Assembly: GCA_038740345.1 (NCBI GenBank)
Contig: JAVYMA010000006.1
Coordinates: 1-64,000 of the forward strand
Direction of reading: 5' to 3'
From: Methanomassiliicoccales archaeon
Lineage (GTDB): Archaea; Thermoplasmatota; Thermoplasmata; Methanomassiliicoccales; UBA472
DNA: 64,000 nt
Below, piece by piece: positions 6,881-62,812 of the stretch. A program made the translations under genes and the position numbers. The first letter of the stretch is position 1. The number at the start of each line of letters is the position of its first letter. The notes beneath the pieces were generated by a model, which saw nothing but the letters and a program-made list of their open reading frames with translations, did no database searches and was not told where the DNA came from.

Positions 6881-7708
6881 TTAGAAATCCAGCTTGGTGC
6901 GATGATACCTCAACCCTATCTGCTCAGCTGAGGCCCCGAAGGCCAGTGCGATCATTTCGGGCAGAAAAAGAACAGGGATTCCCTGCTTCTGCCGCAGGTC
7001 AAATTGCAGGAAGCAGAAGGGGCAAGGCGTTAATATGCAGTTGGCCCCTGAAGCCTTGAAAAGCTCTGTATTCTCGCGTAAAATGGCTTCAGAGATACGA
7101 TCCTCTATTCCAGCTAGGCCACCTCCACAACAGCGAGGCCAAAGCTCATTATAGACCACTTGAGCTCCAATCCACTCAGCGAATTTACCTAGGAGCATAG
7201 GAGAAAAGTAGGACTCTACACGCAGCAATTTACTAGGCCGTACCAAATGGCATCCGGGATGGCAAGCGAGTCTCAACTCCTTCAGAGGCCTTTTGACCAA
7301 AGCATTGATAGCAGACTCCCCCTGGTCCTTTAAGACCTCTGCGATATGCTTCACTTCTACCCCTCCCCGATACTCCAGTCCGATTTGCGCCAAATTTCTA
7401 TTTATCCTCTCTCTGACGTCTTTTCGCTCTAGGTGATGGATTGCCTCCTTGAATGAAAGGAAGCATCCGTTGCACAGGGAGATGACATCCCTCCTTTCAG
7501 TCGAGGCGATTGAGAGCATCCTGCCAACAAACATCAGCCAAGCATCATAACCGAGTGAGCGTAGGCCAATTGGCTCTACGCAGCAGGTAGCTCTGGGAAA
7601 AGATAGATAATCGATTCCCATTCGATCAAGGACGAACCTTGAGGATGCCTCGAGGAAGGGAAGTCTTGAGGATATAAGGCATCCAGCATATAGAAAGTAG
7701 GAAGGCAA
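6881..7708 (-). CDS. hdrB: HdrB-like subunit with two CCG cysteine-rich domains
   Basis: HdrB-type proteins hold noncubane [4Fe-4S] clusters that reduce disulfides or pass electron pairs. This 275-residue protein has both CCG domains. The first carries C9 (YAGCL), the ATCCVEP pair and CNGC. The second carries ACHPGC, PRCCGGG and TPCPFC. No membrane segment is present, so it is cytosolic. It follows hdrC by 2 nt and is surely cotranscribed. No hdrA gene lies next to it. The natural substrate could be a heterodisulfide, another thiol, or none if HdrBC only docks to a partner such as the HdrA-like proteins at 55634-58326. Confidence 0.85.
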   Translation of the reverse strand: MPSYFLYAGCLISSRLPFLEASSRFVLDRMGIDYLSFPRATCCVEPIGLRSLGYDAWLMFVGRMLSIASTERRDVISLCNGCFLSFKEAIHHLERKDVRERINRNLAQIGLEYRGGVEVKHIAEVLKDQGESAINALVKRPLKELRLACHPGCHLVRPSKLLRVESYFSPMLLGKFAEWIGAQVVYNELWPRCCGGGLAGIEDRISEAILRENTELFKASGANCILTPCPFCFLQFDLRQKQGIPVLFLPEMIALAFGASAEQIGLRYHRTKLDF

Positions 7709-7710
7709 AA

Positions 7711-8193
7711 TCAGAACCTCCCTAATCTGCTTAAAGAGAGAAGGATCTTGAGTTCTTCCATCACCTTCTCATCCACCTCCAGCTCGGGTAGAGAGAACTC
7801 GCTTCTCAGCTTTTTAGTCAACCCCGTCCGAGGAAAGGACATCCCGGTCTTTACAAATAGCTTCATTTCCTCCTCAAAATGTGGAGGCCTATTGCCACGA
7901 ATGGCAGCTGCGTTCCGCAGTAAAGTGATTACATGTGCGGGGTCAGCACCGACCTGACAACGCTCTGAGCAGGAGTTGCACATCAGGCATTTCCAGATAT
8001 CTTGCTCTAACCTAAGGTCCATGGTCCCTTTGGAAGCCCGTTCCATGATCTCCCGTGGTCTAATGCCACCATACCGTGCGGAAGGGCATACACCCGTGCA
8101 ATGGCCACATTGATGGCACTTACGTAAGTTTATGTGAGATAATGAATCATGTAATTCCCTTTCTAAAGCTGTATCATATGAAGACTTTTTCAC
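7711..8193 (-). CDS. hdrC: HdrC-like [4Fe-4S] electron transfer subunit
   Basis: The 160-residue protein has the two cluster motifs of HdrC: CHQCGHCTGVCPS near residue 26 and CLMCNSCSERCQV near residue 70, each C-x2-C-x2-C-x3-C. HdrC passes electrons between an HdrA flavoprotein and HdrB. The remaining C-terminal part is helical and matches the usual HdrC tail that packs on HdrB. It lies 2 nt upstream of hdrB. Together they form a soluble HdrBC module. The intergenic region upstream (8194-8405) is shared with the divergent small zinc protein gene. Confidence 0.87.
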   Translation of the reverse strand: MKKSSYDTALERELHDSLSHINLRKCHQCGHCTGVCPSARYGGIRPREIMERASKGTMDLRLEQDIWKCLMCNSCSERCQVGADPAHVITLLRNAAAIRGNRPPHFEEEMKLFVKTGMSFPRTGLTKKLRSEFSLPELEVDEKVMEELKILLSLSRLGRF

Positions 8194-8397: not shown

Positions 8398-8405
8398 AGT
8401 CGAGC

Positions 8406-32461: not shown

Positions 32462-32466
32462 CTAGC

Positions 32467-33987: not shown

Positions 33988-33991
33988 GAGA

Positions 33992-35995: not shown

Positions 35996-35996
35996 C

Positions 35997-37534: not shown

Positions 37535-38619
37535 CAGAACCAACCCCCTATCTTCAAGGCAATAGCAATGCCCAGGTTAATCAGCGCCAGAGGCATGAGT
37601 TTGGTCCAACCAATGCTCAGGATCTGCTTGGTGGTAATACGCATAAGTGCGCCTCGAATCCATATGAACAGGCCGAAAACCAGGAACATCTTGAGAACAG
37701 TCCAAATCTCAGACCATAGGAAGCTAGGACCGGACCAGCCTCCGAGGAATAGAAGGACTATAAGTCCGCTGGCGGCGAATCCTCTCACATACTCTGACAA
37801 CATGATTAGGCCCCAACGGAAGCCACCATATTCCGTCATCCATCCCTCGACTAACTCCGCTTCGGCTTCAGGAAGGTCAAAAGGTATCCTTTCTACCTCT
37901 GCGATTGCGGATATGAAAAAGACCAGGAAACCGATGAAGAGGGGGATGACATACCACATCGTGGCCTGCTGAGCAGATACTATATCGAAGAAGTTAAGGC
38001 TCCCTGCTAGCACCACCACCGAGGCCACTGACAGCAAAATCGGCACTTCATACGCTATTAGCTGGGCAGCCGCCCTCATACCTCCAATTACAGTATATTT
38101 GTTATTCGAAGCCCATCCTGCAATCAATATCGCGAATGGCGCTAAAGAGAATACCGCAAACACCAGAAGCAGTCCCGCAGGCAGATTGGCCATGTAGAAA
38201 GCCGGTCCGAGAGGTATGAGTCCGATCATAAGGCAGGAGATAGCTATTAACAAAACAGGAGCGAGGTCGAAAAGTTGTTTATCCACTTCCTCAGGGATGA
38301 TGTGTTCCTTGATGAAAGTCTTTAGTCCATCAGCAAAATTCTGGAAAAGACCCAAAACACCGACTTGCGTCCCCCTCCTATCCATCAACCTCCCTAGCAT
38401 CTTCCTTTCTTGCCAGATAAAGGTGATGGAGATAAGGAAGCCTACGATGAAGACTATCAACGCCGCCAGCAGCGTGGTCAAGAAATGCACCACTCCGGGA
38501 GAGACCAGCCACCCTGCGAACCCATGCCATCCGAGGAGGTTGTTGAAGGGCCAGGCCAAAACCTGCATCAGCCACAGGGCAATACCATACACGAACTCAT
38601 ATAGGCCATTGGCTTCCAT
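37534..38619 (-). CDS. nuoH: Complex I membrane subunit NuoH
   Basis: NuoH (361 residues, about 8 spans) links the membrane arm to the quinone site. Conserved parts are ERKMLGRLMDRRGTQVGVLG after the first helix, the ADGLKTFIKEHIIPE loop, EVERIPFDLPEAEAELVEGW with its row of glutamates, and the RGALMRITTKQ end. The match is strong over the whole length. It lies 5 nt behind nuoD. Confidence 0.97.
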   Translation of the reverse strand: MEANGLYEFVYGIALWLMQVLAWPFNNLLGWHGFAGWLVSPGVVHFLTTLLAALIVFIVGFLISITFIWQERKMLGRLMDRRGTQVGVLGLFQNFADGLKTFIKEHIIPEEVDKQLFDLAPVLLIAISCLMIGLIPLGPAFYMANLPAGLLLVFAVFSLAPFAILIAGWASNNKYTVIGGMRAAAQLIAYEVPILLSVASVVVLAGSLNFFDIVSAQQATMWYVIPLFIGFLVFFISAIAEVERIPFDLPEAEAELVEGWMTEYGGFRWGLIMLSEYVRGFAASGLIVLLFLGGWSGPSFLWSEIWTVLKMFLVFGLFIWIRGALMRITTKQILSIGWTKLMPLALINLGIAIALKIGGWF

Positions 38620-38624
38620 TCAAA

Positions 38625-39710
38625 TCACCTATCCGTCTCCCCGAGGCACATGTCCACCGAGCCCATAATGGCGGGCACATCCGCGATCTTATATCCGATT
38701 AGCATCGCCGGCGCTGCTGAAACGGTCACGAAGATGGGGCTCCTGACTTTTAGTCGATAAGGTCGGTCATCACCGTTGCCAATCACGTACATGAACCCTT
38801 CTCCACGCGGATCCTCCACATGGGCCCATGCTGTCTTTCCTTTAGGAGCATAGCGTGGAGGCTTGACGCGTATGGGTCCTTTGGGCATTTTCTTTATGCA
38901 TTGGCGGATGATATTGCAGGATTCGCGCATCTCATCCATCCTTACACGATAGCGCGCGTAAGCATCGCATCCCTTCTCCACGCAGACGTTCCACTCAATC
39001 TGGTCATACATCTCATAGGGGTCGTCGCGGCGAACATCATAATCCACACCGCTACCCCTTAGGTTTGGCCCCGTGACCCCTAGGTTCTTGGCCTTTTCTG
39101 GATCTAAGTATCCCACGTCCTCCATCCTCATGCGGAACACGGTGCTCTGGTCGCATAGAGCCTCGAGGTCGCAAATGCGCTTCTCGAAGTGGTTGAGGAC
39201 CCGCGTGAAATCGCGCTCAAAGTTAGCGGGGACGTCGTTGCGAACGCCGCCGATGCGGGGATAATTATACGTCATTCTGGCGCCACAAAGATTCTGCATG
39301 AGGTCCAGGAATAGCTCCCTCTCTCTCACGGCGTAGAGAAAGACAGTGTAAGAACCAAGGTCTGTGCCCAACGCCGCGAGCCACATCAAGTGGCTTCCTA
39401 TCCTTTGCGCCTCCAAGACGATGGTGCGTATCCATTTAGCGCGCTCTGGAACCTCGACCTCTAAGAGATTCTCCATGGTTAGGCAATAAAGATGGCTCCA
39501 GCTCATGGAAGCACCATAACAGAGTCTGTCCGCCATGGGAATGATCTGTGGGAACCTCCTATTCTCGGTGAGCTTTTCCCATCCTCGATGCAGGTACCCT
39601 ATAACTGGCTCAGCCTCGGTCATGGTCTCCCCATCTACCTTGACCCTAAGGTTCCATAACCCATGAGTCATAGGGTGCTGCGGACCCATGTTCAGCCACA
39701 TCTCGGCCAT
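38625..39710 (-). CDS. nuoD: Complex I 49-kDa subunit NuoD
   Basis: NuoD (361 residues) forms part of the quinone pocket and descends from the large subunit of NiFe hydrogenases. It shows NMGPQHPMTHGLWNLRV with the conserved His, PVIGYLHRGWEKL, RIGSHLMWLA and TGPNLRGSGVDYDVR. The four nickel-binding cysteines of hydrogenases are absent, so it is a true complex I subunit and not a hydrogenase. It follows nuoC by 1 nt. Confidence 0.97.
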   Translation of the reverse strand: MAEMWLNMGPQHPMTHGLWNLRVKVDGETMTEAEPVIGYLHRGWEKLTENRRFPQIIPMADRLCYGASMSWSHLYCLTMENLLEVEVPERAKWIRTIVLEAQRIGSHLMWLAALGTDLGSYTVFLYAVRERELFLDLMQNLCGARMTYNYPRIGGVRNDVPANFERDFTRVLNHFEKRICDLEALCDQSTVFRMRMEDVGYLDPEKAKNLGVTGPNLRGSGVDYDVRRDDPYEMYDQIEWNVCVEKGCDAYARYRVRMDEMRESCNIIRQCIKKMPKGPIRVKPPRYAPKGKTAWAHVEDPRGEGFMYVIGNGDDRPYRLKVRSPIFVTVSAAPAMLIGYKIADVPAIMGSVDMCLGETDR

Positions 39711-39711
39711 C

Positions 39712-40197
39712 TCAGACCCTCCTTCCTGAAACGAAATCCTTTCTGAATGGGAAGACCTGGGTGCCCTCGGGATTTAATAATCGCTCTAACTTGGGATGGC
39801 CTTTGAAGACAATGCCGAACATGTCCCAGGTCTCACGCTCATGCCAATTAGCGCCTCCCCAGAGGGAAGAGATAGAGTCGATCTCAGGCTTATCCCGCGG
39901 TAGGTCAACCACCAATTCCGCCGTGACGTTGTTGGCGTATGAGGTTATGTGGTAAACCACCTGCATCTTGTTCTCTGCCAGCCAATCCACACCCGTGACG
40001 CAGGTAACATGCTCGAAGTCCTGATTTTCCTTCATAAAAGTAGCCAGTTTAAGGATCACATCCTTATCTACCTGCGCATACAGACGGTTGCGCGTGGCTT
40101 TGGTGATAGTTACGCCTTGAGGAAATCTCTGCGAGATCTCCTGTGCAAGTATCTCTCCGGTCTTGCCCCCTGGGGCCAATCCGCTCCTTTGCCTCAT
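39712..40197 (-). CDS. nuoC: Complex I 30-kDa subunit NuoC
   Basis: NuoC (161 residues) is a structural subunit of the peripheral arm. The typical block WHERETWDMFGIVFKGHP and the end PLRKDF-type FPFRKDFVSG are present. NuoC is separate from NuoD here, as in most non-proteobacterial complexes. The gene is 9 nt behind nuoB. Confidence 0.95.
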   Translation of the reverse strand: MRQRSGLAPGGKTGEILAQEISQRFPQGVTITKATRNRLYAQVDKDVILKLATFMKENQDFEHVTCVTGVDWLAENKMQVVYHITSYANNVTAELVVDLPRDKPEIDSISSLWGGANWHERETWDMFGIVFKGHPKLERLLNPEGTQVFPFRKDFVSGRRV

Positions 40198-40206
40198 TTT
40201 AGCACC

Positions 40207-40770
40207 TCAGCCTTCCAGGAAGGTACCCCTCATCTGTTTGTTGATCAGCTTGTGCAATTTCATGAAACCGTCTATCATAGCTTCTGGCCTGGGAGGGCAG
40301 CCAGGTATGTAAACATCAACGGGTATGAAGGTGTCAACACCTTGGACTGTATTATGGGAGTCGTACCATGGACCTCCTGATATGGCGCACTCTCCCATGG
40401 CCACTACCCATCTGGGCTCGGCCATTTGCTCATACAACCTCCTCAGGTCCGGTCTGAGCTTGGCTGTTATCCATCCATTGACTAAAAGCACTTCGCATTG
40501 TCGCGGAGAGGAACGATATATCATGCCCAGCCTCTCAGCATCGAAGCGCGGCCCTGAAGCGGCGGCCATCTCCAGGGCGCAGCAGGCAATGCCGAAGTGC
40601 AGCGGCACGGTAGCATTCCTTATGGCCCAGCTCCAGATGGGAGCGGTGATCTTATCCACGGCCTTCTTGACTCCGGTGTACCTCATCAACTGCTCCATCA
40701 AATCCGTCGACCAGGCCATGAATTCAGCTGAGGTCATCGCGACCGCATGGGGAGCTAACCTCAAATCCAT
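40207..40770 (-). CDS. nuoB: Complex I subunit NuoB (cluster N2)
   Basis: NuoB (187 residues) holds the last [4Fe-4S] cluster before the quinone. The ligands are the adjacent pair in ACCALEM, the Cys in MGECAISG and the Cys in PGCPPRPEA. The overall match is strong. The start overlaps the nuoA end by 10 nt. Cysteine and arginine positions are all standard. Confidence 0.97.
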   Translation of the reverse strand: MDLRLAPHAVAMTSAEFMAWSTDLMEQLMRYTGVKKAVDKITAPIWSWAIRNATVPLHFGIACCALEMAAASGPRFDAERLGMIYRSSPRQCEVLLVNGWITAKLRPDLRRLYEQMAEPRWVVAMGECAISGGPWYDSHNTVQGVDTFIPVDVYIPGCPPRPEAMIDGFMKLHKLINKQMRGTFLEG

Positions 40771-41120
40771 AGTATCTTCTCCTTTTTCAGTGCATAAGTG
40801 ACCCCAACCAAGAGGGTCCCGAGGAATATGACCATGTACCAGCGAGACGCATCCGATAGCTCAGAGAACGCCAAGGCCCAAATCATGAGGAAAACGGTCA
40901 CGATATCAAAAATCACGAAAATAATAGCATACAGATAGAACTGTACATGGAACTGAATTTGTCCATGACCGATAGGTTGCTCACCGCACTCGTATGTCAT
41001 ACGTTTCTGGGGCAGATAGCGGTTCGGTCGGAAGAACCTGGAGACCCAGAAAGCGAGCGCAGGGAACAAGATGGCTATCAGCGCAAAGACGGCCACCGGA
41101 AAGTAATCATCTAGGAGCAT
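40761..41120 (-). CDS. nuoA: Complex I membrane subunit NuoA
   Basis: NuoA (119 residues, three spans) is the first gene of the operon. It has the NuoA loop with YECGEQPIGHGQIQFHVQFYLYAIIF, including the conserved Cys and Glu, and the third helix. A TATA box at 41141-41150 lies about 26 nt before the ATG, with purine-rich AAAGG ahead of it as a possible BRE, so the operon mRNA is likely leaderless. Twelve genes follow without a gap larger than 10 nt. Confidence 0.96.
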   Translation of the reverse strand: MLLDDYFPVAVFALIAILFPALAFWVSRFFRPNRYLPQKRMTYECGEQPIGHGQIQFHVQFYLYAIIFVIFDIVTVFLMIWALAFSELSDASRWYMVIFLGTLLVGVTYALKKEKILWI

Positions 41121-51535: not shown

Positions 51536-52438
51536 TTAACGTCTTCGTCCCTTGGCCTTTTCTACCGCCATCTCGGCCGCGCGCACGGTATTGACCATGA
51601 GCATGGCCCGGGTCAACAGACCAACGCCTCCAGGCACAGGAGTTATGGCCTTGGCCTTCTTGCTGACCGCTTCGAAATCCACATCCCCCACCAGACGATA
51701 TCCTTTCTCGGACTTAGGGTCATCCACTCGATTCATCCCCACGTCCACCACCACTGCCCCCTCCTTGACCATATCTGCCCCTATGGCCTTGGGCCTTCCC
51801 ATGGCCACTATGAGCACATCGGCCTGTCTGGTGAAATAAGAGAGGTCCTTGGTGGCGGAATGGCACACGGTAACGGTAGCGTTGGCCCCGACCCCCTTCT
51901 GCATGAGCATCGCGGCCATGGGCTTGCCCACAATGTTGCTGCGCCCCACAATCACCACATGCTTCCCTTCAGGCGAGTTGCCGCTGCGCAGCAAAAGCTC
52001 CTTTATGCCTTGTGGGGTACAGGGGAGCATGCCTGGAGACCCCAGCAGCATCTTGCCCACGTTTATGGGGTTGAAACCGTCAACATCCTTATCCGGCTCG
52101 ATGCGCTCCATGACCTTGGCCTCGGCGATATGGCGCGGTAGTGGCATCTGCACCAGGACGCCATGGATCTTAGGATCGGCCTGCAGGTAATCCAGATTTC
52201 GCAGCAACTCTTCCTCGGACACCGTCTCAGGGAGATTCAGCTGTTTGCTGTTTATGCCCAATTCCCGGCATTCCTTGGTCTTCATGCTCACGTATACCTT
52301 GGAGGCTGGATCCTCACCCACCAGCACCACGCCTAAGCCCGGCGTATTCCCTGACAAGTGAAGTCGCATAACTCTCTCCTTCAGCTCTGCCTTAATCTGT
52401 GCCGCTATCCTGCCGCAATCGATAACCTGTGCAGGCAT
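51536..52438 (-). CDS. folD: Methylene-THF dehydrogenase / methenyl-THF cyclohydrolase FolD
   Basis: FolD joins 10-formyl-THF and 5,10-methylene-THF through methenyl-THF with NADP(H). The 300-residue protein has the catalytic Lys in KVYVSMKTKECRELGI, the HGVLVQMPLPRHI block, DVDGFNPINVG, GRSNIVGKPMAAML at the NADP site, and TPVPGGVGLLTRAML. It is typical throughout. It is divergent from fhs. Together with fhs and metVF it forms the THF-linked methyl branch of the Wood-Ljungdahl pathway. FolD in an archaeon that has Fhs suggests catabolic or autotrophic C1 flow as well as purine supply. Confidence 0.96.
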   Translation of the reverse strand: MPAQVIDCGRIAAQIKAELKERVMRLHLSGNTPGLGVVLVGEDPASKVYVSMKTKECRELGINSKQLNLPETVSEEELLRNLDYLQADPKIHGVLVQMPLPRHIAEAKVMERIEPDKDVDGFNPINVGKMLLGSPGMLPCTPQGIKELLLRSGNSPEGKHVVIVGRSNIVGKPMAAMLMQKGVGANATVTVCHSATKDLSYFTRQADVLIVAMGRPKAIGADMVKEGAVVVDVGMNRVDDPKSEKGYRLVGDVDFEAVSKKAKAITPVPGGVGLLTRAMLMVNTVRAAEMAVEKAKGRRR

Positions 52439-52631: not shown

Positions 52632-54305
52632 GTGAAGACAAACATCGAGATCGCTCAGGCCGCCAAGTGTCTGCCTATCGAGGAAGTGGCCAGCAAGATA
52701 GGCCTATCCCCGGATGATCTGCAGCGCTACGGGAAATATGCCGCCAAGATACCCTTGGAAGTTCTGCGCCGCTTTGAGGATAGGCCCAATGGAAAGCTCA
52801 TCGTCACCACGGCCGTCACCCCTACTCCCGCGGGGGAAGGCAAGACCGTAACCACCATAGGCCTTGTTCAGGGTTTGGGGAAATTGAACCGCCGGGTTAT
52901 CGGCGCCTTGCGCCAGCCTTCCTTAGGCCCGGTATTCGGAACCAAAGGCGGAGCCACGGGAGGAGGCAGGTCACAAGTATATCCCATGTGGGAGATAGAC
53001 CTTCACTTCACAGGTGACATCCATGCGGTGGGGGCGGCCCATAATCTGTTATCAGCCATAATCGAGAACCATGTTAACCGCAAGAATGAGCTGAATATCG
53101 ATCCTACCCGCATCATCTGGAAGAAGGCCATAGACATGAACTGCCGGGAGCTGAGGCAGATAATCGTGGGTTTGGGGGGAAGAGGGGAAGGAGGCGTGCC
53201 GCATGAATCAGGTTTCATTATTACCGCTGCTTCTGAGATAAGCGCCATCTTGGCCTTGTCCACATCTATGCAAGACCTCAAGGAGCGGCTGGGGCGCATG
53301 ATCGTGGCCTATACCTATGATAAGAAACCGGTGTATGCCAAGCAACTGGGATGCATAGGGGCTATGGCTCTGCTTTTGCGCGAGGCTATCAAGCCCAACA
53401 TCGTCCAGACACTGGAAGGTGAGCCCATGTTCATACATGGCTTCCCCTTCGCCAACATCGCGCATGGCAATAATTCGTTGTTAGCCACCAAATACGCCCT
53501 CAAATTGGCGGATTACGTGGTCACAGAGGCAGGTTTCGGGACTGATCTAGGTGCAGAAAAATTCTTTAACATAGTCTGCCGCGTGGGTGGTCTGAGGCCG
53601 GACTGCGCGGTGCTAGTAGCCTCGATTAGGGCTCTCAAGATGCATGGAGGATGCCCCTTGGAGAAATGTGAGGTCAAGAACCTAGAGGCCCTGGAAAGAG
53701 GCCTGGCCAATCTAGAGAGGCATGTGCTCAACGTGCGCAAGTATGGCGTTCCAGTGGTGGTGGCCATCAATCATTTCCAGACCGATACGGTAGAGGAAGT
53801 GGAGCTGGTGATGCAGCATTGCCGTCGTCTTGGTGTGCGCTCTGCCGTCTCTTTCGTCTTCGATCAGGGCGGAGAGGGCGGCGTGCAATTGGCCCATCAA
53901 GTATTGGAGGCCATCGAGAAGGATCAGAACTCCTTCAAATTCTTGTACGACTTGAACATGCCCATCCGCAAGAAGATCGAGACGGTGGCCAGGGAGATGT
54001 ATGGCGCGGGGGAGATCAAATTCCACGCTGAGGCTGAGAAAGACCTGGAATGGATAGAGAAGAACGGCTACGGAGGGCTGCCGGTGTGCATAGCTAAGAC
54101 CCAGCATTCAGTTACCGACGACCCCAAGATCAAAGGCGCTCCCATGGGCTGGACTCTGACTGTGAAGGAGGTGCAGGTATCCGCCGGGGCAGGCTTCGTG
54201 GTGGCCATTTGCGGGGACATCATGTTGATACCGGGTCTGCCTGCCAGGCCTAACGCTTTGGACATGGATGTGTTCGACGACGGCAGGATCGTGGGTCTGA
54301 ATTAA
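52632..54305 (+). CDS. fhs: Formate--tetrahydrofolate ligase
   Basis: Fhs joins formate to THF using ATP, the entry step of the THF methyl branch. The 557-residue length is typical. The P-loop is TPTPAGEGKTVTTIGL, followed by the family blocks GATGGGRSQVYPMWEIDLHFTG (in two parts), GFIITAASEISAILAL, KPNIVQTLEG and LPARPNALDMDVFDDGRIVGL at the end. The start is GTG with GAGGTG upstream. It is a bacterial-type enzyme; most archaea use tetrahydromethanopterin instead. That suggests gene transfer into the lineage, or an old THF pathway. It is divergent from folD. Confidence 0.97.
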   Translation: MKTNIEIAQAAKCLPIEEVASKIGLSPDDLQRYGKYAAKIPLEVLRRFEDRPNGKLIVTTAVTPTPAGEGKTVTTIGLVQGLGKLNRRVIGALRQPSLGPVFGTKGGATGGGRSQVYPMWEIDLHFTGDIHAVGAAHNLLSAIIENHVNRKNELNIDPTRIIWKKAIDMNCRELRQIIVGLGGRGEGGVPHESGFIITAASEISAILALSTSMQDLKERLGRMIVAYTYDKKPVYAKQLGCIGAMALLLREAIKPNIVQTLEGEPMFIHGFPFANIAHGNNSLLATKYALKLADYVVTEAGFGTDLGAEKFFNIVCRVGGLRPDCAVLVASIRALKMHGGCPLEKCEVKNLEALERGLANLERHVLNVRKYGVPVVVAINHFQTDTVEEVELVMQHCRRLGVRSAVSFVFDQGGEGGVQLAHQVLEAIEKDQNSFKFLYDLNMPIRKKIETVAREMYGAGEIKFHAEAEKDLEWIEKNGYGGLPVCIAKTQHSVTDDPKIKGAPMGWTLTVKEVQVSAGAGFVVAICGDIMLIPGLPARPNALDMDVFDDGRIVGLN

Positions 54306-54677: not shown

Positions 54678-55514
54678 TCATCTTTTCCAGGCCTCGGCTA
54701 TCTCCTGCATAGTCAAGAACTCCATGCCCTCCTCCCTCACTCCCTGTAGGACTCGGCGCAGGTTGTGGAGGTTAGCCTTTGTCGAGGCTTCATCCAATAT
54801 ACCGCGATTATAAGTTTCTACCAAATGCCAGCTATGGGTGGCTAGGACCAATACGCCATGGTGTACTGAGGCCGCCAAGCGGCGGTAGTCCTCCGGTGCC
54901 CTTCTCCCTTCGTGCATGGGCCAGAGATATGAGACAATCTTTCTCCCGGCCAAGTCCATGGCGCTCGCAAGAGGTATCTCCAGCAGCTCCCCCGCCACCT
55001 TAAAAGGTCTGATGCTCCCCTCATCATCGATAGGCCTGGTGAAAGAGGAATCATAAGCGAAACCTTTCTTATGAAGTAGATAGAGCGTCCTTTGGTCGAT
55101 ATGTTGGTATGGAGCACGGAAGCCTTGAGGCTCGAGGGAGAATACTTCTTTAACAATCTCCTTGGAGCGGTCCAGCATTTCTGAGATTTCCCAGCCTGTG
55201 AGCGGTAGACCTGTGGATTCACCAGTTATATCTTCATGGCACACCCCATGACATGCCACTTCATGGCGGGAGAGCAGTTTCCTTACATCCATCTCTCTGG
55301 CCAAGTGGATAAGGGTCTCGCCTTCCAGGAAGAAGGTGGCCCTTATGCCCAACTCTGAAAGCAAGTCCACGGCCAGACAAAGGCCTTTGGCCGAGGAGGA
55401 GAATCTCGCCTCTAACCTATCTCTCTCGGGGCATTTGGAGCACGCCTCCTTCTTGCCTGGTGCAGGGAGGTTCACGTCCCTGTCCACATCCAAGGTGAAG
55501 GCCGCTACCCTCAT
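54678..55514 (-). CDS. Polysaccharide deacetylase (NodB-like)
   Basis: The 278-residue protein has the NodB fold motifs: FTLDVDRD with the catalytic and metal-binding Asp pair, ATFFLEGE, HEVACHGVCHED with the two metal His residues, GFRAPYQH and THSWHLV near the end. It removes acetyl groups from N-acetyl sugars or related chains. There is no signal peptide, so it would act in the cytosol, perhaps on sugar-nucleotide or lipid-linked intermediates. An extra Cys pair (CSKC at about 22) is unusual and could bind zinc. It is divergent from the HdrA-like operon. Confidence 0.88.
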   Translation of the reverse strand: MRVAAFTLDVDRDVNLPAPGKKEACSKCPERDRLEARFSSSAKGLCLAVDLLSELGIRATFFLEGETLIHLAREMDVRKLLSRHEVACHGVCHEDITGESTGLPLTGWEISEMLDRSKEIVKEVFSLEPQGFRAPYQHIDQRTLYLLHKKGFAYDSSFTRPIDDEGSIRPFKVAGELLEIPLASAMDLAGRKIVSYLWPMHEGRRAPEDYRRLAASVHHGVLVLATHSWHLVETYNRGILDEASTKANLHNLRRVLQGVREEGMEFLTMQEIAEAWKR

Positions 55515-55597
55515 GATACTCTAATCGAAGGAAAGGTCAATAATCTTTTGTCCAGCGGTGAGCGGTTTCTGTAGGAATGGTTGAAGGCTGAGAAGCT

Positions 55598-55606
55598 ATA
55601 TATAAA
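55598..55606 (+). promoter_or_regulatory. TATA box of the hdrA-mvhD-metVF operon
   Basis: ATATATAAA lies 28-36 nt before the GTG at 55634 and 31-39 nt before the ATG at 55637. It is one of the strongest TATA boxes in the window and would give a very short leader. Confidence 0.6.
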
Positions 55607-55633
55607 GAATCGAGTCTCGCAATAGAGTCGCCG

Positions 55634-56743
55634 GTGATGAGCCTGGATGAGCAAACCTCCAAAGAGTGTGAGATCAAACCGCTTCAGGATAGTACAACTG
55701 AAAATGTTCGAAGAGTGGCTATTATAGGATCTGGAATAGCTGGCTTGTGCGCTGCACTGAGCCTCGGGGAGAGGGGAGTACCCTCCATCATAATCGAGAA
55801 GGAGCATGAATTGGGCGGGCTCTGCGCGCAGCTGAGCTGTAAGGGCGTGGAGCGATGCGTGCGATGCGATGTGTGCCTGGCAAGGGACAAGATAAAACTG
55901 GTCAGAGACTCGCCTGGGGTGGAGATAATTAAGGATGCGGAGGTTATGGCGCTCGAGGGAAGGCCAGGGGATTTCATTCTCCGCCTTACCAAGTCATCCC
56001 AGTTGTTAGAGCTCAAAGTGGGGGCAGTCATATGCTCCGTCGGAGCTATTCCTTTCCATCCCCAATCGGACAGGAGGCTGGGATATGGTGAAGTAGCGGA
56101 TGTCATCACCTCTTTAGAGATGGAGAAGGGATTGGCAAGCTCAGGCAGGATCCTTGTTCCATCCACCGCAAAGGAGCCCAGCAGCCTGGCCTTCGTCCAA
56201 TGCGTAGGTTCGCGGGATGACAGACTGCGCGCCTCCTACTGTTCTAGCTATTGCTGTAAATCCTCTTTCAAGCTGGCACAAGCCGTCAAAACCAGGGTTC
56301 CCGCTTGCAGTGTAACCTTCTTTTATATGGACCTCAGGCTGCAGGACCCTAGGGAGAACATCAGGCTATGGGCTTCCCTTCAGGAGAATGTGGAACTCAT
56401 AAGATCGAGGCCTTCGGAGATCCTTAGGGGCGAGGACGGTAGGCCATTGGTCCGCTTCGTCCGAGAGGATGAGAGTATCGTCGAAGAGCGTTCTTTTGAT
56501 CTGGTGGTCCTTGCTACGGGGCTTCGGCCAGTAACGAACGCAAGAAAATTGAGCGCAGCGTTGGGGATTGAACTTGATGCGTTCGGTTTCATCTCCACGA
56601 GCACATACGACAGGTGGTGCTCGAGCAGAGCTGGTGTTTTCGTCGCGGGTTCCTGCGCGGGCCCCAAGGATATCGTGGCCAGCGCGGAGGATGGAGCAGC
56701 CGCGGCTAGCAGGGCAATAGCTCTTCTGGAGGGTCGCTCATGA
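55634..56743 (+). CDS. hdrA: HdrA-like flavoprotein, FAD core domain
   Basis: This 369-residue protein has the FAD core of HdrA: VAIIGSGIAGLCAALSLGE, the ELGGLCAQLS segment, the Cys block RCVRCDVCLARDK, and VQCVGSRDD followed by YCSSYCCKSSFK, which in HdrA binds a cluster. Standard HdrA has an N-terminal cluster domain before this core and ferredoxin domains in and after it. Those are absent here and are found in the next gene. The start is GTG 55634 or ATG 55637. Its stop overlaps the next start by 4 nt. It is likely to be the bifurcating flavin or an electron relay. Confidence 0.8.
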   Translation: MMSLDEQTSKECEIKPLQDSTTENVRRVAIIGSGIAGLCAALSLGERGVPSIIIEKEHELGGLCAQLSCKGVERCVRCDVCLARDKIKLVRDSPGVEIIKDAEVMALEGRPGDFILRLTKSSQLLELKVGAVICSVGAIPFHPQSDRRLGYGEVADVITSLEMEKGLASSGRILVPSTAKEPSSLAFVQCVGSRDDRLRASYCSSYCCKSSFKLAQAVKTRVPACSVTFFYMDLRLQDPRENIRLWASLQENVELIRSRPSEILRGEDGRPLVRFVREDESIVEERSFDLVVLATGLRPVTNARKLSAALGIELDAFGFISTSTYDRWCSSRAGVFVAGSCAGPKDIVASAEDGAAAASRAIALLEGRS

Positions 56744-58326
56744 GCGATGAGTGTGTATATGTTATGGTGTGCTCATGGGCAGGAGGAGAGCGACCCCCCT
56801 TCCAGGTGCAAGAGCTGGTTGAATATGCGGCAGGGCTAAAGGGAGTCGCTGCTGCCTTTCTCATCCCTCGATTGTGCAAGAGCGAGGGCAGGGAGCAGGC
56901 GCGTGCTTTACTGAAAAACTCCAAGGCTAACAGAGTGGTGTTGGTTGGTTGTCACGATTCAGGATTTAGAGCAGAATTCGCCAAGCTGATGGAAGGATCA
57001 GGCTTGAGTCCATACGGTCTCGAAATTGCGAACGTTAGGGAATTGGCTGCCTACATCCATCCGCCGGAGGCGGCGTTAAGAAAGGCCAAGGCCATGATGG
57101 CCGCCGCGGTGGAAAAGATGAGGGCCTGGAATCCGCCGCCCACTTTCCTAGAGGGAAGAACTTTGCGCAGGGTGGCCGTCATAGGGAGTGGTCTTACCGC
57201 CACCTTGGCTTCGCGAGAACTGGTAGCTCAAGGCTTGGAAGTGGAAGTGATCGTCCCGAAGAATCAGATCAGCACCCCCCCCTCCTATATCTTTGCTGAT
57301 GAGAAGGAGATGAAAAGAGGTCATAGCACATTAAAAGAGTTGGAAGCTAAGGTTAAAGTACTGTGGGGCAAGAGAGTCATCCGCTGTGAGGGTGTACCAG
57401 GAGATTTTGAGCTGGAGATGGAAAGCGCGGAAGGCATTTCCCGAGCCCGCTACGGGGCTATCATCCTAGCTCCAGAACCTTGCTTGGAGCTCAGGGACCT
57501 AGAGGGGAGACCAGTTCAGGAGAGTAGGATGGCGAATTCTAATCACATTTCGATCGTGGTCTTGCCCGGAGGCAGGAGTTCCGGCACGGATTGTTCCTGC
57601 ATCTCTCCGCGCGCCACGCTATTCGCCCTGAAGGCCAAGGCGAACGCGTCGAACCTGAGCATCTCGCTCTTAGGAAGGGAATTAAGGGCGATGGGAAAGA
57701 TGGAGGCGTTGCAGCGCCAGGCCCAATGCCTGGGGGTTACGTTCTATAGACTTCAAGGGGAGGTGCATTGGCAGGGCTCGGGGCCATATGAGATTAGCTT
57801 CCAGGATTCGCTATTAGGGCCAATCCGCTTGAAGGCAGATTTGGTGCTCAGGGACAGCATCACCAATGCGGAGGCGGAAGAACTCGCTAGGATATTCAAA
57901 CTTCCCCTGGATGACAAGGGTGACATCCTACGGATGGATTCTAGGCTCAGACCAGGTGAGACGGTCAGGGCTGGGATATTGGCGTGTCGATACCGCCTAG
58001 GCAATATGTTATTCGAAGACCTGGAGAGAGAGGCGGCTGCAGCCGCAGCGCGAGCGGCGGAGCTGCTTAAAGGGAATGCCCGGCGCGAGGGGGCGCTGGC
58101 GCAGGTTGACAAGGAAAAATGCTCGGCCTGCCTGAGCTGTGTGCGCATCTGCCCTTATTCCGCTCCGCGCATAGGGGAGGGAGGCAAGGCCGAAGTCATT
58201 CCAGAGTTATGCCAGGGTTGCGGAGCCTGCGCACCTCTCTGTCCCAGCCGCGCCATAGCGATGCATATGGACACTGAAGAGCAGATATACGCCCAAACCA
58301 GGGCGCTCTTGAGGTGCTTAGGATGA
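56740..58326 (+). CDS. Second HdrA-like protein: N-terminal HdrA domain, degenerate FAD domain, C-terminal 2[4Fe-4S]
   Basis: Residues 1-130 look like the N-terminal domain of HdrA (VYVMVCSWAGG, LIPRLCKSEG, VVLVGCHDSGF, LEIANVRELAAYIH), but the usual C-x-C is reduced to one Cys with Trp nearby. A Rossmann domain follows (VAVIGSGLTATLASREL) in which the rest of the FAD motif is poorly kept. The C-terminus has two cluster motifs, CSACLSCVRICPY and CQGCGACAPLCPS. So the parts that the first HdrA-like protein lacks are here. The pair probably forms one functional HdrA. The gene overlaps both neighbours by 4 nt (ATGA). Confidence 0.8.
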   Translation: MSDECVYVMVCSWAGGERPPFQVQELVEYAAGLKGVAAAFLIPRLCKSEGREQARALLKNSKANRVVLVGCHDSGFRAEFAKLMEGSGLSPYGLEIANVRELAAYIHPPEAALRKAKAMMAAAVEKMRAWNPPPTFLEGRTLRRVAVIGSGLTATLASRELVAQGLEVEVIVPKNQISTPPSYIFADEKEMKRGHSTLKELEAKVKVLWGKRVIRCEGVPGDFELEMESAEGISRARYGAIILAPEPCLELRDLEGRPVQESRMANSNHISIVVLPGGRSSGTDCSCISPRATLFALKAKANASNLSISLLGRELRAMGKMEALQRQAQCLGVTFYRLQGEVHWQGSGPYEISFQDSLLGPIRLKADLVLRDSITNAEAEELARIFKLPLDDKGDILRMDSRLRPGETVRAGILACRYRLGNMLFEDLEREAAAAAARAAELLKGNARREGALAQVDKEKCSACLSCVRICPYSAPRIGEGGKAEVIPELCQGCGACAPLCPSRAIAMHMDTEEQIYAQTRALLRCLG

Positions 58327-58724
58327 GGATAATAGGCTTCGTGTGCGAGCACGGCGGCGCATCAGCTTTTCGTCTGGCAGGAGAACGCAAGCTAGAGTTG
58401 CCCACGGAGGTCGCTCTCATCTCATTGCCATGTTTAGGGAGGCTGGACGTGATGCACATCCTTAGGGCTTTCCGAGAAGGAGCGGACGCAGTTTTCGTGG
58501 CGGGATGCCTGGAGGGCAATTGCCATCATTTATATGGCAACATAGAAGCAGCCAAGAGGGTGGAACAGGCCAAGCGCATCCTTGAGCAAGTGGGCTTGGG
58601 GAAAGAGAGGCTAGAGATGTTCCATCTCTCCTCGGACCAATCGTGGAAAGCGAAGGAGGTGGCCGAACTCATGCTCGAACGAGCTAAGGAGATAGGGGAG
58701 AGCCCGTTGGGGGTAAGAGGATGA
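58323..58724 (+). CDS. mvhD: MvhD-type electron transfer subunit (second copy)
   Basis: The 133-residue protein has an MvhD/FrhD pattern: IGFVCEHGGASAFR at the start, LPCLGRLDVMHILRAFREGADAVFVAGC, then GNCHHLYGNIEA. Compared with the first MvhD, the first cluster segment is reduced from CCNWC to one Cys (VCEHGG), so not all [2Fe-2S] ligands are kept. It may bridge HdrA-like proteins to MetVF without carrying a standard cluster. The ATG at 58323 overlaps the previous stop (ATGA), and its own stop overlaps metV (ATGA). Confidence 0.85.
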   Translation: MRIIGFVCEHGGASAFRLAGERKLELPTEVALISLPCLGRLDVMHILRAFREGADAVFVAGCLEGNCHHLYGNIEAAKRVEQAKRILEQVGLGKERLEMFHLSSDQSWKAKEVAELMLERAKEIGESPLGVRG

Positions 58725-59425
58725 TCGTAGGGGAGCAGAAGCCTCTGGAAGAGATCTTCAGGATGCTTTCGGGCCATGAGCGCATCCTTGTCGCGGGATG
58801 CCGTTCCTGTGTGGCGGTGTGCCATGCGGGGGGAGAGAAGGAAGTATCCATCCTGGCCGAGGCCTTGCGCCTTCGTGCCAGCCTTGCTAATCACCCCTGG
58901 AAGGTGGAAGAGATCACGGTGGAGAGGCAGTGCGAGCGAGAGTGGGTGGAGGCCATGGGGCCATTGGTAAAAGGCAAAGATGCCGTGCTCTCCCTGGCCT
59001 GTGGGGTTGGGGCGCAAACCGTGCAGGTGCTCTATCCTAGGATCAGGGTGTTGCCAGGTTTGAACACCAGTCACATGGGCGCGCCTGATATGCCTGGAGT
59101 CTTCGTGGAGAAATGCGGCGGTTGCGGTGATTGTCTCCTCCACCTAACCGGTGGCATATGTCCCATCGCCCGTTGTGCCAAGAGCCTGCTAAATGGTCCT
59201 TGCGGGGGCTCCCAGAATGGCAGGTGCGAGATCTCTCCTGAAGTGCCGTGCGCCTGGGATCAGATCGTGCGCAGCCTGGAGGCAATGGGCAGGTCGGACC
59301 TGCTCGAGGAGCCCATACCTCCCAAGAGCTGGTTGACAGCCAGGGATGGGGGGCCGCGCAGGACGGTGATCCCAACAGCGGTCATCAGCGAGGAGCAAAG
59401 GAAGATGAAGGGGGAGAGGCCTTGA
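58721..59425 (+). CDS. metV: Methylene-THF reductase zinc/iron-sulfur subunit MetV
   Basis: MetV is the partner of MetF in acetogens and related anaerobes. The 234-residue protein has an N-terminal Cys pair (GCRSCVAVCHAGG), an alpha/beta middle (VLSLACGVGAQTV) and the signature end KCGGCGDCLLHLTGGICP, RCAKSLLNGPCGG and GRCEISPEVPCAWD, which holds many cysteines for a cluster and zinc. Its gene is coupled to both mvhD and metF by 4-nt overlaps. The product should let MetF receive electrons from the HdrA/MvhD proteins and not directly from NADH. Confidence 0.9.
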   Translation: MIVGEQKPLEEIFRMLSGHERILVAGCRSCVAVCHAGGEKEVSILAEALRLRASLANHPWKVEEITVERQCEREWVEAMGPLVKGKDAVLSLACGVGAQTVQVLYPRIRVLPGLNTSHMGAPDMPGVFVEKCGGCGDCLLHLTGGICPIARCAKSLLNGPCGGSQNGRCEISPEVPCAWDQIVRSLEAMGRSDLLEEPIPPKSWLTARDGGPRRTVIPTAVISEEQRKMKGERP

Positions 59426-60333
59426 GGTCAGGCAGCAACCTGGAGCAAGCATTGGAGTCAGGAAGATTCGCGGTGACGGCGGAGATAGGCCCTCCAAGAT
59501 CGGCCAGTGCAGAGAGGATAAGGACGCATGCCAGGCAAATGAAGGGATGCGCCGATGCCTTCAACCTCACCGATAACCAGACGGCCATGTCGCGCATGTC
59601 GTCCATAGCTTGCGCCGTGGTGCTGCTGCAGGATGGCCTAGAGCCTGTGGTGCAGATGACCTGCCGCGATCGCAACCGCATCGCCTTGCAGGGCGACGTC
59701 CTGGGAGCGAGCGCCCTTGGCGTGCGCAACATATTGTGCTTGAGCGGTGACCACCAGACCTTCGGCAGCATGAAGGAGGCCAAGAATGTATACGATCTGG
59801 ACTCGATCCAGCTGCTTATGGTTCTGCGACGGATGCGGGATGAGGGCAAGCTCTGGAGCGGAGACGAGCTGGAGGTCGCCCCTAAGCTGTTTCTAGGTGC
59901 TGCAGCCAATCCTTTCGCCGACCCCTTTGAATATCGCGTGATCAGGCTGGCGAAGAAAATCAAGGCAGGAGCTGACTTCATCCAGACCCAGAGTATCTAC
60001 GATATGCAGCGCTTCGAGCGCTGGATGTCATTGGTGCGGGAGAAAGGCCTGCACCAGAAGGTGCATATCCTGGCGGGAGTCATGCCGCTCAAATCGCACA
60101 AGACCGCCCTGTACATGAAGAATAAAGTATCAGGCATGTGCGTGCCCGATTCGATAATAGATCGTCTAAGAAGGGCCAGCGATCCCAAGGAAGAAGGCAT
60201 TCAAATGTGCGTGGAGCAGATACAGCATCTTAGGGACATCGAAGGGATAAGAGGCGTGCACATAATGGCGCCAGCGTGGGAGGAGAAGGTGCCAGAAATC
60301 GTGCGGCGAGCCGGTCTATCCTCAATTTCCTAA
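59422..60333 (+). CDS. metF: 5,10-methylene-tetrahydrofolate reductase MetF
   Basis: MetF reduces methylene-THF to methyl-THF on FAD. The 303-residue protein shows FAVTAEIGPPRSA at the N-terminus with the catalytic Glu, CADAFNLTDNQTA, VQMTCRDRNRIALQGD, NILCLSGDHQTFG, LFLGAAANPFADP and ADFIQTQSIYD, then AGVMPLKSHKTALYM. The start is TTG at 59422, which overlaps the metV stop (TTGA) and has GGGGGAGAGG just upstream. A longer frame back to 59248 only overlaps metV. This is the last gene of the five-gene operon. Confidence 0.94.
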   Translation: MRSGSNLEQALESGRFAVTAEIGPPRSASAERIRTHARQMKGCADAFNLTDNQTAMSRMSSIACAVVLLQDGLEPVVQMTCRDRNRIALQGDVLGASALGVRNILCLSGDHQTFGSMKEAKNVYDLDSIQLLMVLRRMRDEGKLWSGDELEVAPKLFLGAAANPFADPFEYRVIRLAKKIKAGADFIQTQSIYDMQRFERWMSLVREKGLHQKVHILAGVMPLKSHKTALYMKNKVSGMCVPDSIIDRLRRASDPKEEGIQMCVEQIQHLRDIEGIRGVHIMAPAWEEKVPEIVRRAGLSSIS

Positions 60334-60476: not shown

Positions 60477-61619
60477 TTGGAAGAGGAGGGAGGGTGGCCA
60501 GTTCATGAATTGGAGGTTCTCAGAGAGGAGATAAGCAGGAGACTGGAGCGAGAGAGAGCAGTACTGGGCAGCATCAGAAGGACTAGAAAGTGGAGAGGGG
60601 TGGGATGGTGGCTGTCGTTCCTCCTATTCTCGGTTTCCTTGGTTCTCATTATCCTTCTCCCCAACGGTTTCATGCTCTGGGTGTTCTGTTCCTACCTGCT
60701 TGTTTCCCTGGCCTGGCTTATCCTCTTTCTCCCGACGAGTAAGAAAGAGGCTGGATTCCTTAGGCAGGAGAGATACCGCGGTAAAAAAGATTTAAAGGGG
60801 GCAGCGAAGGCCATAGCTAAAGGACGCAAAACGCTCATAACAGAGGTTTGGTTAGATGCTTTCCTATATGGGAACACCCTCTCGCTCTTCTCTGTCACAT
60901 TACTCTTCAGTGTCAACATCGTTGGTGCATTTTATTTCGGGTTGATGGAAAGAGCGTTGCCTCTGCAACTGTCGTTGATCATCATCGTGCAGGGCGCCGC
61001 AATCATACTCTTGCGATTCTTGCTTCTCATCTATCGCCCCTATGCTCACGGCACGTTCCGCATGCCTGAGAACTGGAAGGGCAGATTAACTGTTTCTCCG
61101 CAGCGGGGGAGGGTGGTCTTGGTGATCGCGTATTTAGCAGCGGTCTTTTTGGTGGTGGTCAGTGGCATCGTCGTGGTGCTTGGTTTCCTATTGCCTGGTG
61201 CCACCAGGAGCAGCGTCTGGAATTTCCTCGCCTCGAACAACTATTCCAATTCTTTAGCGCTGGTCCTTTTCTTCTTGATGATGTATTTCATCTGGCGCTT
61301 CCTCCTCTCAGTGATGAGCATTTATTTAGGGGAAGGCGTGGCGGCTAGCAGAGTGAGGAGGCTAGAGGAGGATGTGTTGGCGCCCTTGGATGAAGTCAGG
61401 CAGCGCCATGACGCAGGCAAGATTGACCAGGCGAAGTTGAAGAGTATCCTTTCAGATTATCGCCGCATCGTCATCTTCGAGTTCGTGAAGCATGACTTGT
61501 TCGGCCTGGCCCCCGTATACCTGATAGCACCGGACATGAGGTTCTTGATGAGCAAGCAAGTCCTTGATGCCGTTACTCGGGCCGAAGGTGTCGGTGGAGC
61601 TCCTGGGAGGGTTATTTGA
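60477..61619 (+). CDS. Uncharacterised multi-span membrane protein, copy A
   Basis: The 380-residue protein starts with about 40 charged residues, then has about six membrane spans (two early, ending in LILFLPTSKKE, then more at 130-270), and ends in a soluble segment with FVKHDLFGLAPVYLIAPDMRFL. Copy B next door shares the LILFLPTS and F-x-H-x-x-F-G-x-x-PVY-x-I motifs and the same order of parts. So they are paralogues from a tandem duplication. TTG at 60477 has GGGGAG about 11 nt upstream. I recognise no family or transport motif. Confidence 0.75.
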   Translation: MEEEGGWPVHELEVLREEISRRLERERAVLGSIRRTRKWRGVGWWLSFLLFSVSLVLIILLPNGFMLWVFCSYLLVSLAWLILFLPTSKKEAGFLRQERYRGKKDLKGAAKAIAKGRKTLITEVWLDAFLYGNTLSLFSVTLLFSVNIVGAFYFGLMERALPLQLSLIIIVQGAAIILLRFLLLIYRPYAHGTFRMPENWKGRLTVSPQRGRVVLVIAYLAAVFLVVVSGIVVVLGFLLPGATRSSVWNFLASNNYSNSLALVLFFLMMYFIWRFLLSVMSIYLGEGVAASRVRRLEEDVLAPLDEVRQRHDAGKIDQAKLKSILSDYRRIVIFEFVKHDLFGLAPVYLIAPDMRFLMSKQVLDAVTRAEGVGGAPGRVI

Positions 61620-61738
61620 TGATTTCGTCTCCTACTTCCATATTCTTTTTACTTTGGGCTTCGCCGAGGTGGTGGACGTTGAAGGATAAAGACATTCTGG
61701 AGGGAGGGAAGGAATTTGAAGAGAGGGAGGGCGAAGCC

Positions 61739-62812
61739 ATGGAGGGCACGGAGAGCTTTGAGGATTTGGTGAAAGGAGAGGTAGAGAGAGACCAAGCTCG
61801 TCTACACAAGTTGAAAGCCTCACAGCCTATTGCAAAAGCCGGATGGGGACTCGTCGCCCTGTTTTGGTTCATAGGTGTATTGATCATCATGCTCACAGAG
61901 GAGGGTTTGCTTCTCTGGCTGGTATGCGCTTTCCTGCTTTATTCCTTCAACTTCCTGATTCTCTTTTTACCTACTAGCAGGAGGAAGGAGAGGATGGAGA
62001 TCCCCAAGCTTAGGGGTGAGGTGAAGCGCCCCGTCTCATATCTTCTCAAGTGCAAGAAGAGACTGGCCGTCGAGGTGGCCGCAGTGTTGCTTTTGGGAGG
62101 GCTCTATCCCCTGGCCCATGCCTTCTTCCTCCTTTTCGGGACTGGCCTGGCTTTTGCCTTATATTATGTAATCATCGCAGGGGCCTATGCCATGGAGTCG
62201 GCTGCAGTGGTGATATTCCAGATCGTTATCATATTGGGTTACTTCGGCCTCATTCTCTGGCTAAGGCCATTAGAGAGAGGGGTACTACGAAGGGCCAAGG
62301 ATTTGAAGGCGACGATGGCCAAGATGCGATCCTCAGGCAGGCTAGCCTCTTTCCTCTTCCTTTCCAGCCTGAGCTTGATGGCCGCCGTGGTAGGTTTACT
62401 TGCTATAGGTGCCATCCTTTTCACTGGCATCTCCCTCAAGCTGGTCTACCAAGGGCTGACGGCAAGGCAAGGCGAAGCCCTGTTCGGCATCATCGTCATG
62501 CTCTCGATCCAACTGCTAATAATGCGTCAGTTCCAGACGGTCGCTAGCCATAGCACGGCCCAGAAATTCCTGGAGCAAAGACAAAGCATAGTGCGCCAAA
62601 AGGTGCTGATGCCACTGGAGAGAATGAATCCTGTTGACAGGGGGCATGCGCCCCTCTCAACTGAGAGAATGAGCGATCTCAAGACTGCCTTTTACTCAGC
62701 TCACTTGTTCGACGTCTTCGAGCACAATTTTTTCGGCCGATGGCCCGTCTACGTCATAGGACCTCGGATCAAATTCCTACTCGATCACGATGCCCTAAAA
62801 TATATGGAATAA
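61739..62812 (+). CDS. Uncharacterised multi-span membrane protein, copy B
   Basis: The 357-residue protein has a charged N-terminus, about six to seven membrane spans (LVALFWFIGVLIIMLTE, then LLWLVCAFLLYSFNFLILFLPTSRR and others) and a soluble end with FEHNFFGRWPVYVIGPRIKFLLD. It is the paralogue of copy A. The frame is open from 61616. I prefer ATG 61739 because GGGAGGG lies 8 nt upstream and it gives the same N-terminal layout as copy A. Copies A and B together may form a heteromer in the membrane. The function is unknown. Confidence 0.75.
   Translation: MEGTESFEDLVKGEVERDQARLHKLKASQPIAKAGWGLVALFWFIGVLIIMLTEEGLLLWLVCAFLLYSFNFLILFLPTSRRKERMEIPKLRGEVKRPVSYLLKCKKRLAVEVAAVLLLGGLYPLAHAFFLLFGTGLAFALYYVIIAGAYAMESAAVVIFQIVIILGYFGLILWLRPLERGVLRRAKDLKATMAKMRSSGRLASFLFLSSLSLMAAVVGLLAIGAILFTGISLKLVYQGLTARQGEALFGIIVMLSIQLLIMRQFQTVASHSTAQKFLEQRQSIVRQKVLMPLERMNPVDRGHAPLSTERMSDLKTAFYSAHLFDVFEHNFFGRWPVYVIGPRIKFLLDHDALKYME

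Follow-up and report, generated by a model that had tools for sequence, protein, structure and literature searches.

A conserved five-gene operon of Methanomassiliicoccales associates methylene-tetrahydrofolate reductase with two HdrA-like proteins and MvhD

We describe an operon of five genes, hdrA1, hdrA2, mvhD, metV and metF, located on the plus strand at positions 55637–60333 of the first 64,000 nucleotides (nt) of contig JAVYMA010000006.1 (assembly GCA_038740345.1), a stretch hereafter called the window. The operon places the two subunits of methylene-tetrahydrofolate (methylene-THF) reductase, MetV and MetF, beside two HdrA-like proteins and an MvhD. We consider it about an even chance that MetVF is thereby given a dedicated Hdr-type electron supply that dispenses with HdrB and HdrC, in which a one-way relay from MvhD through HdrA2 and HdrA1 would feed the reductase. 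The host is a Methanomassiliicoccales methanogen with a 1.79-Mb genome that encodes McrA. The window lies on contig 6 of this genome, and the nearest named relatives of the host are metagenome-assembled genomes (MAGs) of the same order, whose members are methanogens found widely in guts and wetlands. An earlier treatment of the C1-THF pathway in Methanomassiliicoccales left the electron link between the methyl-THF step and ferredoxin without a candidate, and NAD(P)H was assumed (PMC6147122).

The operon lies in a folate Wood-Ljungdahl island

The four junctions between the genes are overlaps of ATGA, ATGA, ATGA and TTGA, exactly as in a preliminary description of this DNA made from the sequence; the first start is refined from an in-frame GTG at 55634 to the ATG at 55637. 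Pfam matches were obtained for MvhD (PF02662, 4.5e-37), MetV (PF12225, 4.2e-34) and MetF (PF02219, 3e-43), and both HdrA1 and HdrA2 match solved HdrA chains in a search of the PDB. For the AlphaFold model of HdrA2 (predicted local distance difference test score 82.9), the first eight structural neighbours are all HdrA or HdrA-like chains. The TATA box that was described earlier as strong corresponds to TATATATAAAG, ~30 nt 5' of the hdrA1 start, and is a consensus match only. Scans for sigma-70 promoters and terminators gave results close to the shuffled background, and such scans are not meaningful for an archaeal host.

Directly upstream of the operon lie folD and fhs, a context absent from the preliminary description. 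Past the window, the same contig (locus L045) encodes an AcsE-like pterin-binding methyltransferase, PurH, RACo, a CooC-like ATPase, two CdhD/E-family proteins and acetyl-CoA synthase (ACS). A stretch of ~30 kb on this one contig holds folD, fhs and metVF together with the genes for the AcsE-like methyltransferase, a corrinoid protein and ACS. The F420-dependent methylene-tetrahydromethanopterin reductase (Mer) was not found in the host genome. Because folD and fhs lie upstream, ACS-side genes share the contig and Mer was not found, the operon belongs to a folate Wood-Ljungdahl island, and the role in a THF-based archaeal pathway that had been proposed for it is well supported.

The carbon monoxide dehydrogenase (CODH)-family gene of the host is on contig 20, and CODH and ACS are separate genes in this genome. 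In genomes G002, G006, G014, G023, G025 and G028, CODH (PF03063) and ACS (PF03598) share one open frame of ~1,370 codons, which suggests that a fused CODH-ACS protein is encoded in many Methanomassiliicoccales.

Conservation of the gene order

The preliminary description had proposed a search for the same gene order in other genomes, particularly those of Thermoplasmatota. In a scan of named genomes that took the best 80 loci, so that its proportions are not a census, the order hdrA1-hdrA2-mvhD-metV-metF was found in 27 of the 28 loci holding all five genes, Thermoplasmatota among them. By title, 24 of these same-order loci are archaeal and 3 are bacterial. The exception comes from an isolate, Carboxydocella thermautotrophica, in which the genes are arranged as acsE-hdrA2-mvhD-metV-metF-hdrA1 with no adjacent hdrBC. 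Since the same five genes are held together in a different order in this cultured bacterium, their association is not due to chance. The published account of C. thermautotrophica reports that metVF occurs twice, in one case together with hdrCBA and mvhD (PMC6085454).

The longer arrangement, with divergent folD followed by fhs and the five genes, recurs in relatives at the level of genus, family and order. Outside Methanomassiliicoccales, only 62–223 nt separate the end of fhs from hdrA1 in Thermoplasmatota loci L098, L101, L102, L115 and L121. Within the order, a divergent gene of the polysaccharide-deacetylase family lies between fhs and hdrA1; it is found here at 54678–55514 (minus strand), is kept throughout Methanomassiliicoccales, and does not occur in this gap in other Thermoplasmatota. 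In the MetV tree, 34 archaeal rows form one clade (100/88), and the split HdrA pair is present in almost all of those whose contig shows the neighbourhood. Within the order, MetV is strongly represented in families f1, f3, f5 and f6 and is confined to a few genera in f2.

Among loci of other kinds, several from Nitrospirota (including L081, L086, L088–L091 and L097) carry, 5' of metVF, a gene for a ~700-amino-acid protein that combines an MvhD-like region with a ferredoxin at the C terminus; folD is often found upstream. In these loci the electron module next to MetVF is of a different, fused kind.

Two HdrA paralogues with complementary domains

HdrA1 comprises the thioredoxin reductase (TrxR)/flavin adenine dinucleotide (FAD) part of HdrA, without the N-terminal domain or either the inserted or the C-terminal ferredoxin. 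Its exit-cluster cysteines (C189, C202, C206 and C207) are kept in 29/29 sequences, and its E163 and K212 correspond to E356 and K409 in the HdrA of M. thermolithotrophicus, a signature associated with bifurcating HdrA that HdrA2 lacks and that is not universal among relatives. HdrA1 also carries the motif C68-X5-C74-X2-C77-X2-C80, invariant in 27/27 sequences and not seen in the aligned solved HdrA and sHdrA chains; C80 aligns with Cys197. HdrA2, in turn, has an N-terminal domain in which C11, C46 and C71 are kept in 14 of the 15 sequences with this domain, a TrxR domain with neither the E/K signature nor the exit-cluster cysteines, and a C-terminal ferredoxin whose eight cysteines, making up two [4Fe-4S] motifs, are kept in 20/20. 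The inserted ferredoxin domain, which in canonical HdrA passes electrons to ferredoxin, is missing from both proteins. These residue patterns indicate that electron entry is divided from electron exit, the former being predicted in HdrA2 only and the latter in HdrA1 only.

The preliminary description held that HdrA is divided between two proteins. There are indeed two HdrA genes, but they are not one HdrA cut in two; by collinearity and phylogeny they are two paralogues that match the N and C halves of a double HdrA. The same two halves, in the same order as HdrA1 and HdrA2, make up 25 fused double HdrA proteins. In the tree, a branch with SH-aLRT 93 sets the split HdrA1 sequences apart, and they are sister to the N halves of the fused proteins (joint support 100); the split form is accordingly an old, separate subfamily and did not arise by a recent break.

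In loci L050, L051, L056, L059 and L062, HdrA2 has no N-terminal domain, and HdrA1 nonetheless keeps all four cysteines of its CX5CX2CX2C motif. This persistence suggests that the motif may hold a cluster in cis and does not only complete one in trans; provision of the trans Cys197 as its sole role was considered and is unsupported.

MvhD had been called degenerate. The second cysteine of its CxxC motif is in fact lost, but four of the five conserved cysteines remain, and the same loss recurs in most Thermoplasmatota operons. The change is, by this distribution, a subfamily trait and not decay. A second MvhD in the window (9832–10296) has the full CxxC motif.

Comparison with known systems

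MetVF-HdrABC-MvhD is an established type of methylene-THF reductase in acetogens, and pull-downs, so far in Sporomusa ovata only, link MetVF to HdrA and MvhD (PMC9430772); the coupling mechanism of this Hdr-type enzyme in acetogens is still disputed. Of the features that define the Hdr-type (type 4) reductase, the operon has adjacent metV and metF, mvhD in the cluster and two TrxR-type HdrA domains, here in two collinear genes, and it has no hdrB and hdrC in the cluster. The S. ovata MetVF-HdrCBA-MvhD system likewise has adjacent MetV, MetF and MvhD, and its HdrA, a protein of 942 amino acids made up of parts 1–382 and 383–942 (PMC9430772), shares with the present pair two TrxR domains, the lack of an inserted ferredoxin domain and an E/K signature confined to the N-terminal TrxR domain. 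It differs in that the operon described here has two separate HdrA genes, no hdrBC, fhs and folD as neighbours, and a methanogenic archaeal host. The Moorella thermoacetica MetVF-HdrBCA-MvhD system shares MetVF, MvhD and the double-HdrA modules, whereas methanogen MvhADG-HdrABC differs by its hydrogenase subunits, its HdrBC and its inserted ferredoxin domain.

The tandem HdrA heterodimers of anaerobic methanotrophic archaea (ANME; HdrA 5/6 and 12/13, PMC9012536) resemble the pair in the complementary loss of domains between two paralogues, with the N-terminal Fe-S domain on one (here HdrA2) and the Cys197 equivalent on the other (C80 of HdrA1). A cluster completed in trans was proposed for the ANME pairs (PMC9012536); HdrA1, by contrast, has a full CX5CX2CX2C motif, even where its partner is without the N-terminal domain. 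A small HdrA paralogue beside a large one may also resemble QmoABC, a complex of QmoA, a QmoB-MvhD fusion and the membrane protein QmoC.

Archaeal MetFV and MvhD associated with HdrA have been seen before, in the Met-type set of Methanomassiliicoccus intestinalis (PMC6085437) and the MetFV-HdrA-MvhD clusters of Ca. Syntrophoarchaeum (PMC9012536), and these precedents narrow the novelty implied by the preliminary description. As far as we found, neither paper describes an HdrA encoded by two genes, the lack of hdrBC, the link to fhs and folD or conservation across the phylum. Relative to the literature examined, what appears to be new is the HdrBC-free operon with two HdrA genes, the HdrA1 subfamily with its CX5CX2CX2C motif, the phylum-wide linkage to folD and fhs, and an exchange of partners for HdrCB in soda-lake relatives.

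A proposed electron relay and its alternatives

Gene order, domain content, residue patterns and pathway context are the basis of the relay that we propose. MvhD would be the point of entry, from which electrons would travel by way of the two [4Fe-4S] clusters at the C terminus of HdrA2 to the flavin of HdrA1 and leave through the HdrA1 exit cluster (C189/C202/C206/C207), possibly also through the additional CX5CX2CX2C cluster. They would then reach the flavin of MetF by way of MetV, where methylene-THF would be reduced to methyl-THF for acetyl-CoA synthesis. HdrA1 and HdrA2 would form an asymmetric heterodimer, and since HdrA2 would serve for entry only and HdrA1 for exit only, MetVF would take the place that HdrBC has on an ordinary HdrA. 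We infer the formation of a five-protein complex, the order of electron transfer, the donor and the direction. An electron-transfer complex feeding methylene-THF reduction had already been suggested in the preliminary description; the partnership is supported by the conserved operons and by the parallel with Moorella and Sporomusa (PMC9430772), and its physical assembly and bifurcation are conjectural. More tentatively, and with somewhat less than even confidence, we suggest that in Thermoplasmatota MetVF takes over from HdrBC by docking directly on the asymmetric HdrA1-HdrA2 dimer, and that HdrA1 holds a family-specific [4Fe-4S] exit cluster in cis.

The operon contains none of the hydrogenase genes mvhA or mvhG, and an Mvh-type hydrogenase is encoded elsewhere in the host genome, where MvhA lies at a separate locus (G000:C8) next to a 1007-amino-acid HdrA. 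No member of the NuoF or FrhB family was found in this genome, and NADH and F420H2 are therefore unlikely donors; the electrons would most likely come from the shared Mvh hydrogenase of the genome or from reduced ferredoxin.

Several observations weigh against the relay. With one conserved cysteine lost, it is not certain that MvhD holds its [2Fe-2S] cluster, and a structure search with the MetV fold returned no informative neighbour. The claimed absence of HdrB and HdrC holds for the operon, both here and in relatives, but an hdrBC pair is encoded 45 kb away in the same window (6881–8193) and may take part. Finally, nested in the archaeal MetV clade are four soda-lake MAGs of Methanomassiliicoccales (L074, L083, L084 and L094) in which the order is folD-fhs-metV-metF-hdrC-hdrB and neither the HdrA pair nor MvhD is adjacent, so that MetVF does not strictly require the HdrA module.

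One alternative is a true flavin-based bifurcating or confurcating methylene-THF reductase, in which electrons from H2 or some other donor would be split at the HdrA1 flavin, part going to methylene-THF and part to ferredoxin. HdrA1 retains both signature residues, S. ovata HdrA likewise has the signature in its N-terminal half only (E160, K216), and the difference between H2 (−414 mV) and methylene-THF (−200 mV) leaves energy to spare (signature and potentials from PMC9430772). However, neither HdrA protein has the inserted ferredoxin domain, and among 29 same-operon relatives the lysine is replaced by R, H or Q in 10 and the glutamate by D in 4. The E/K signature makes bifurcation possible, and the missing ferredoxin exit together with these replacements means that it is not favoured; we regard it as unlikely.

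We think it similarly doubtful that the operon contributes to a complete Hdr-type reductase to which the HdrBC pair at 6881–8193 is supplied in trans, as the presence of HdrBC in the Moorella and Sporomusa clusters would suggest. The HdrB encoded directly after metVF in the soda-lake MAGs groups with the window HdrB and its orthologues (100/99), and this clade stands apart from canonical and bacterial HdrB; in genome G024 orthologous hdrCB lies ~4 kb downstream of metF. G024, however, is without MetV and the HdrA pair, and no orthologue of the window hdrBC was found in the high-completeness operon-bearing genomes G002, G003, G025, G026 and G035. In most genomes hdrCB travels with mvhD and an HdrD-like gene, as it does in the window (6881–10296, minus strand: mvhD2, HdrD-like gene, hdrC and hdrB, with a gap of ~0.5 kb between the HdrD-like gene and hdrC), and in G023 and G034 this set follows a 980-amino-acid HdrA. 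Such company suggests that the set is probably a separate soluble Hdr complex. At the G024 locus (L201), metF follows fhs in a genome without metV, and genes for an AcsE-like protein and PurH lie just downstream together with hdrCB.

It is also rather unlikely that MetVF works alone with reduced ferredoxin while HdrA and MvhD serve some other co-transcribed reaction. Isolated MetVF of C. ljungdahlii was reported to depend on reduced ferredoxin (PMC8515935), and the soda-lake relatives have metVF without adjacent hdrA1, hdrA2 and mvhD; against this stand the very strict retention of the five-gene order over the phylum and some bacteria, and the pull-down evidence of contact in S. ovata (PMC9430772). 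Least probable, and in our judgement improbable outright, is operation in the oxidative direction, with electrons from methyl-THF leaving through HdrA and MvhD to ferredoxin or the Fpo-like complex: methyl oxidation by the C1-THF pathway of Methanomassiliicoccales, with its missing ferredoxin link, has been discussed (PMC6147122) and an Fpo-like complex is encoded in the window, but fhs and the ACS genes on the contig fit acetyl-CoA synthesis, and oxidation toward low-potential acceptors would be uphill unless coupled.

Other features of the window

The coordinates of the operon and associated features are collected in Table 1. Directly 3' of metF, at 60477–62812 (plus strand), are genes for two paralogous hydrophobic proteins of ~390 amino acids without a Pfam match. 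They were considered as a core membrane anchor and ruled out, as they have relatives in the same genus only. A minus-strand Fpo-like complex I operon with nine subunit genes by Pfam occupies 30944–41120, and its 248-amino-acid FpoI-like protein carries extra [4Fe-4S] motifs.

Table 1. Coordinates of the MetVF operon and of related features in the window.
Feature	Coordinates	Strand	Remarks
TATA-box-like TATATATAAAG	55597..55607	+	upstream of operon; consensus match only
hdrA1, 368-amino-acid HdrA-like flavoprotein	55637..56743	+	TrxR/FAD domain, exit-cluster Cys set, CX5CX2CX2C motif; without N-terminal, inserted and C-terminal Fe-S domains
hdrA2, 528-amino-acid HdrA-like protein	56740..58326	+	N-terminal 3-Cys domain, Rossmann/TrxR domain without E/K signature, C-terminal 2x[4Fe-4S]
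mvhD, 133-amino-acid MvhD/FlpD-family protein	58323..58724	+	CxxC changed to CxxG
metV, 234-amino-acid Cys-rich methylene-THF reductase subunit	58721..59425	+	PF12225
metF, 303-amino-acid methylene-THF reductase	59422..60333	+	PF02219; TTG start
fhs, formate-THF ligase	52632..54305	+	conserved upstream neighbour
folD, methylene-THF dehydrogenase/cyclohydrolase	51536..52438	-	conserved divergent neighbour
hdrB paralogue	6881..7708	-	belongs to the subfamily found after metVF in soda-lake relatives; may act in trans
hdrC paralogue	7711..8193	-	paired with hdrB at 6881..7708

Implications

The conserved operon of MetVF with HdrA1, HdrA2 and MvhD is a specific candidate for the electron link left open in PMC6147122, in an order that includes the culturable Methanomassiliicoccus. 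It offers a minimal version of the Hdr-type enzyme, and the occurrence within one order of alternative MetVF partners, either the HdrA pair with MvhD or HdrCB, amounts to a natural experiment on what MetVF needs. If MetVF does dock directly on the HdrA1-HdrA2 dimer, the operon would specify a methylene-THF reductase that is driven by Hdr proteins and complete with neither HdrBC nor its own hydrogenase, and would provide the electron link that is so far unexplained in the folate Wood-Ljungdahl pathway of methylotrophic methanogens that depend on H2.

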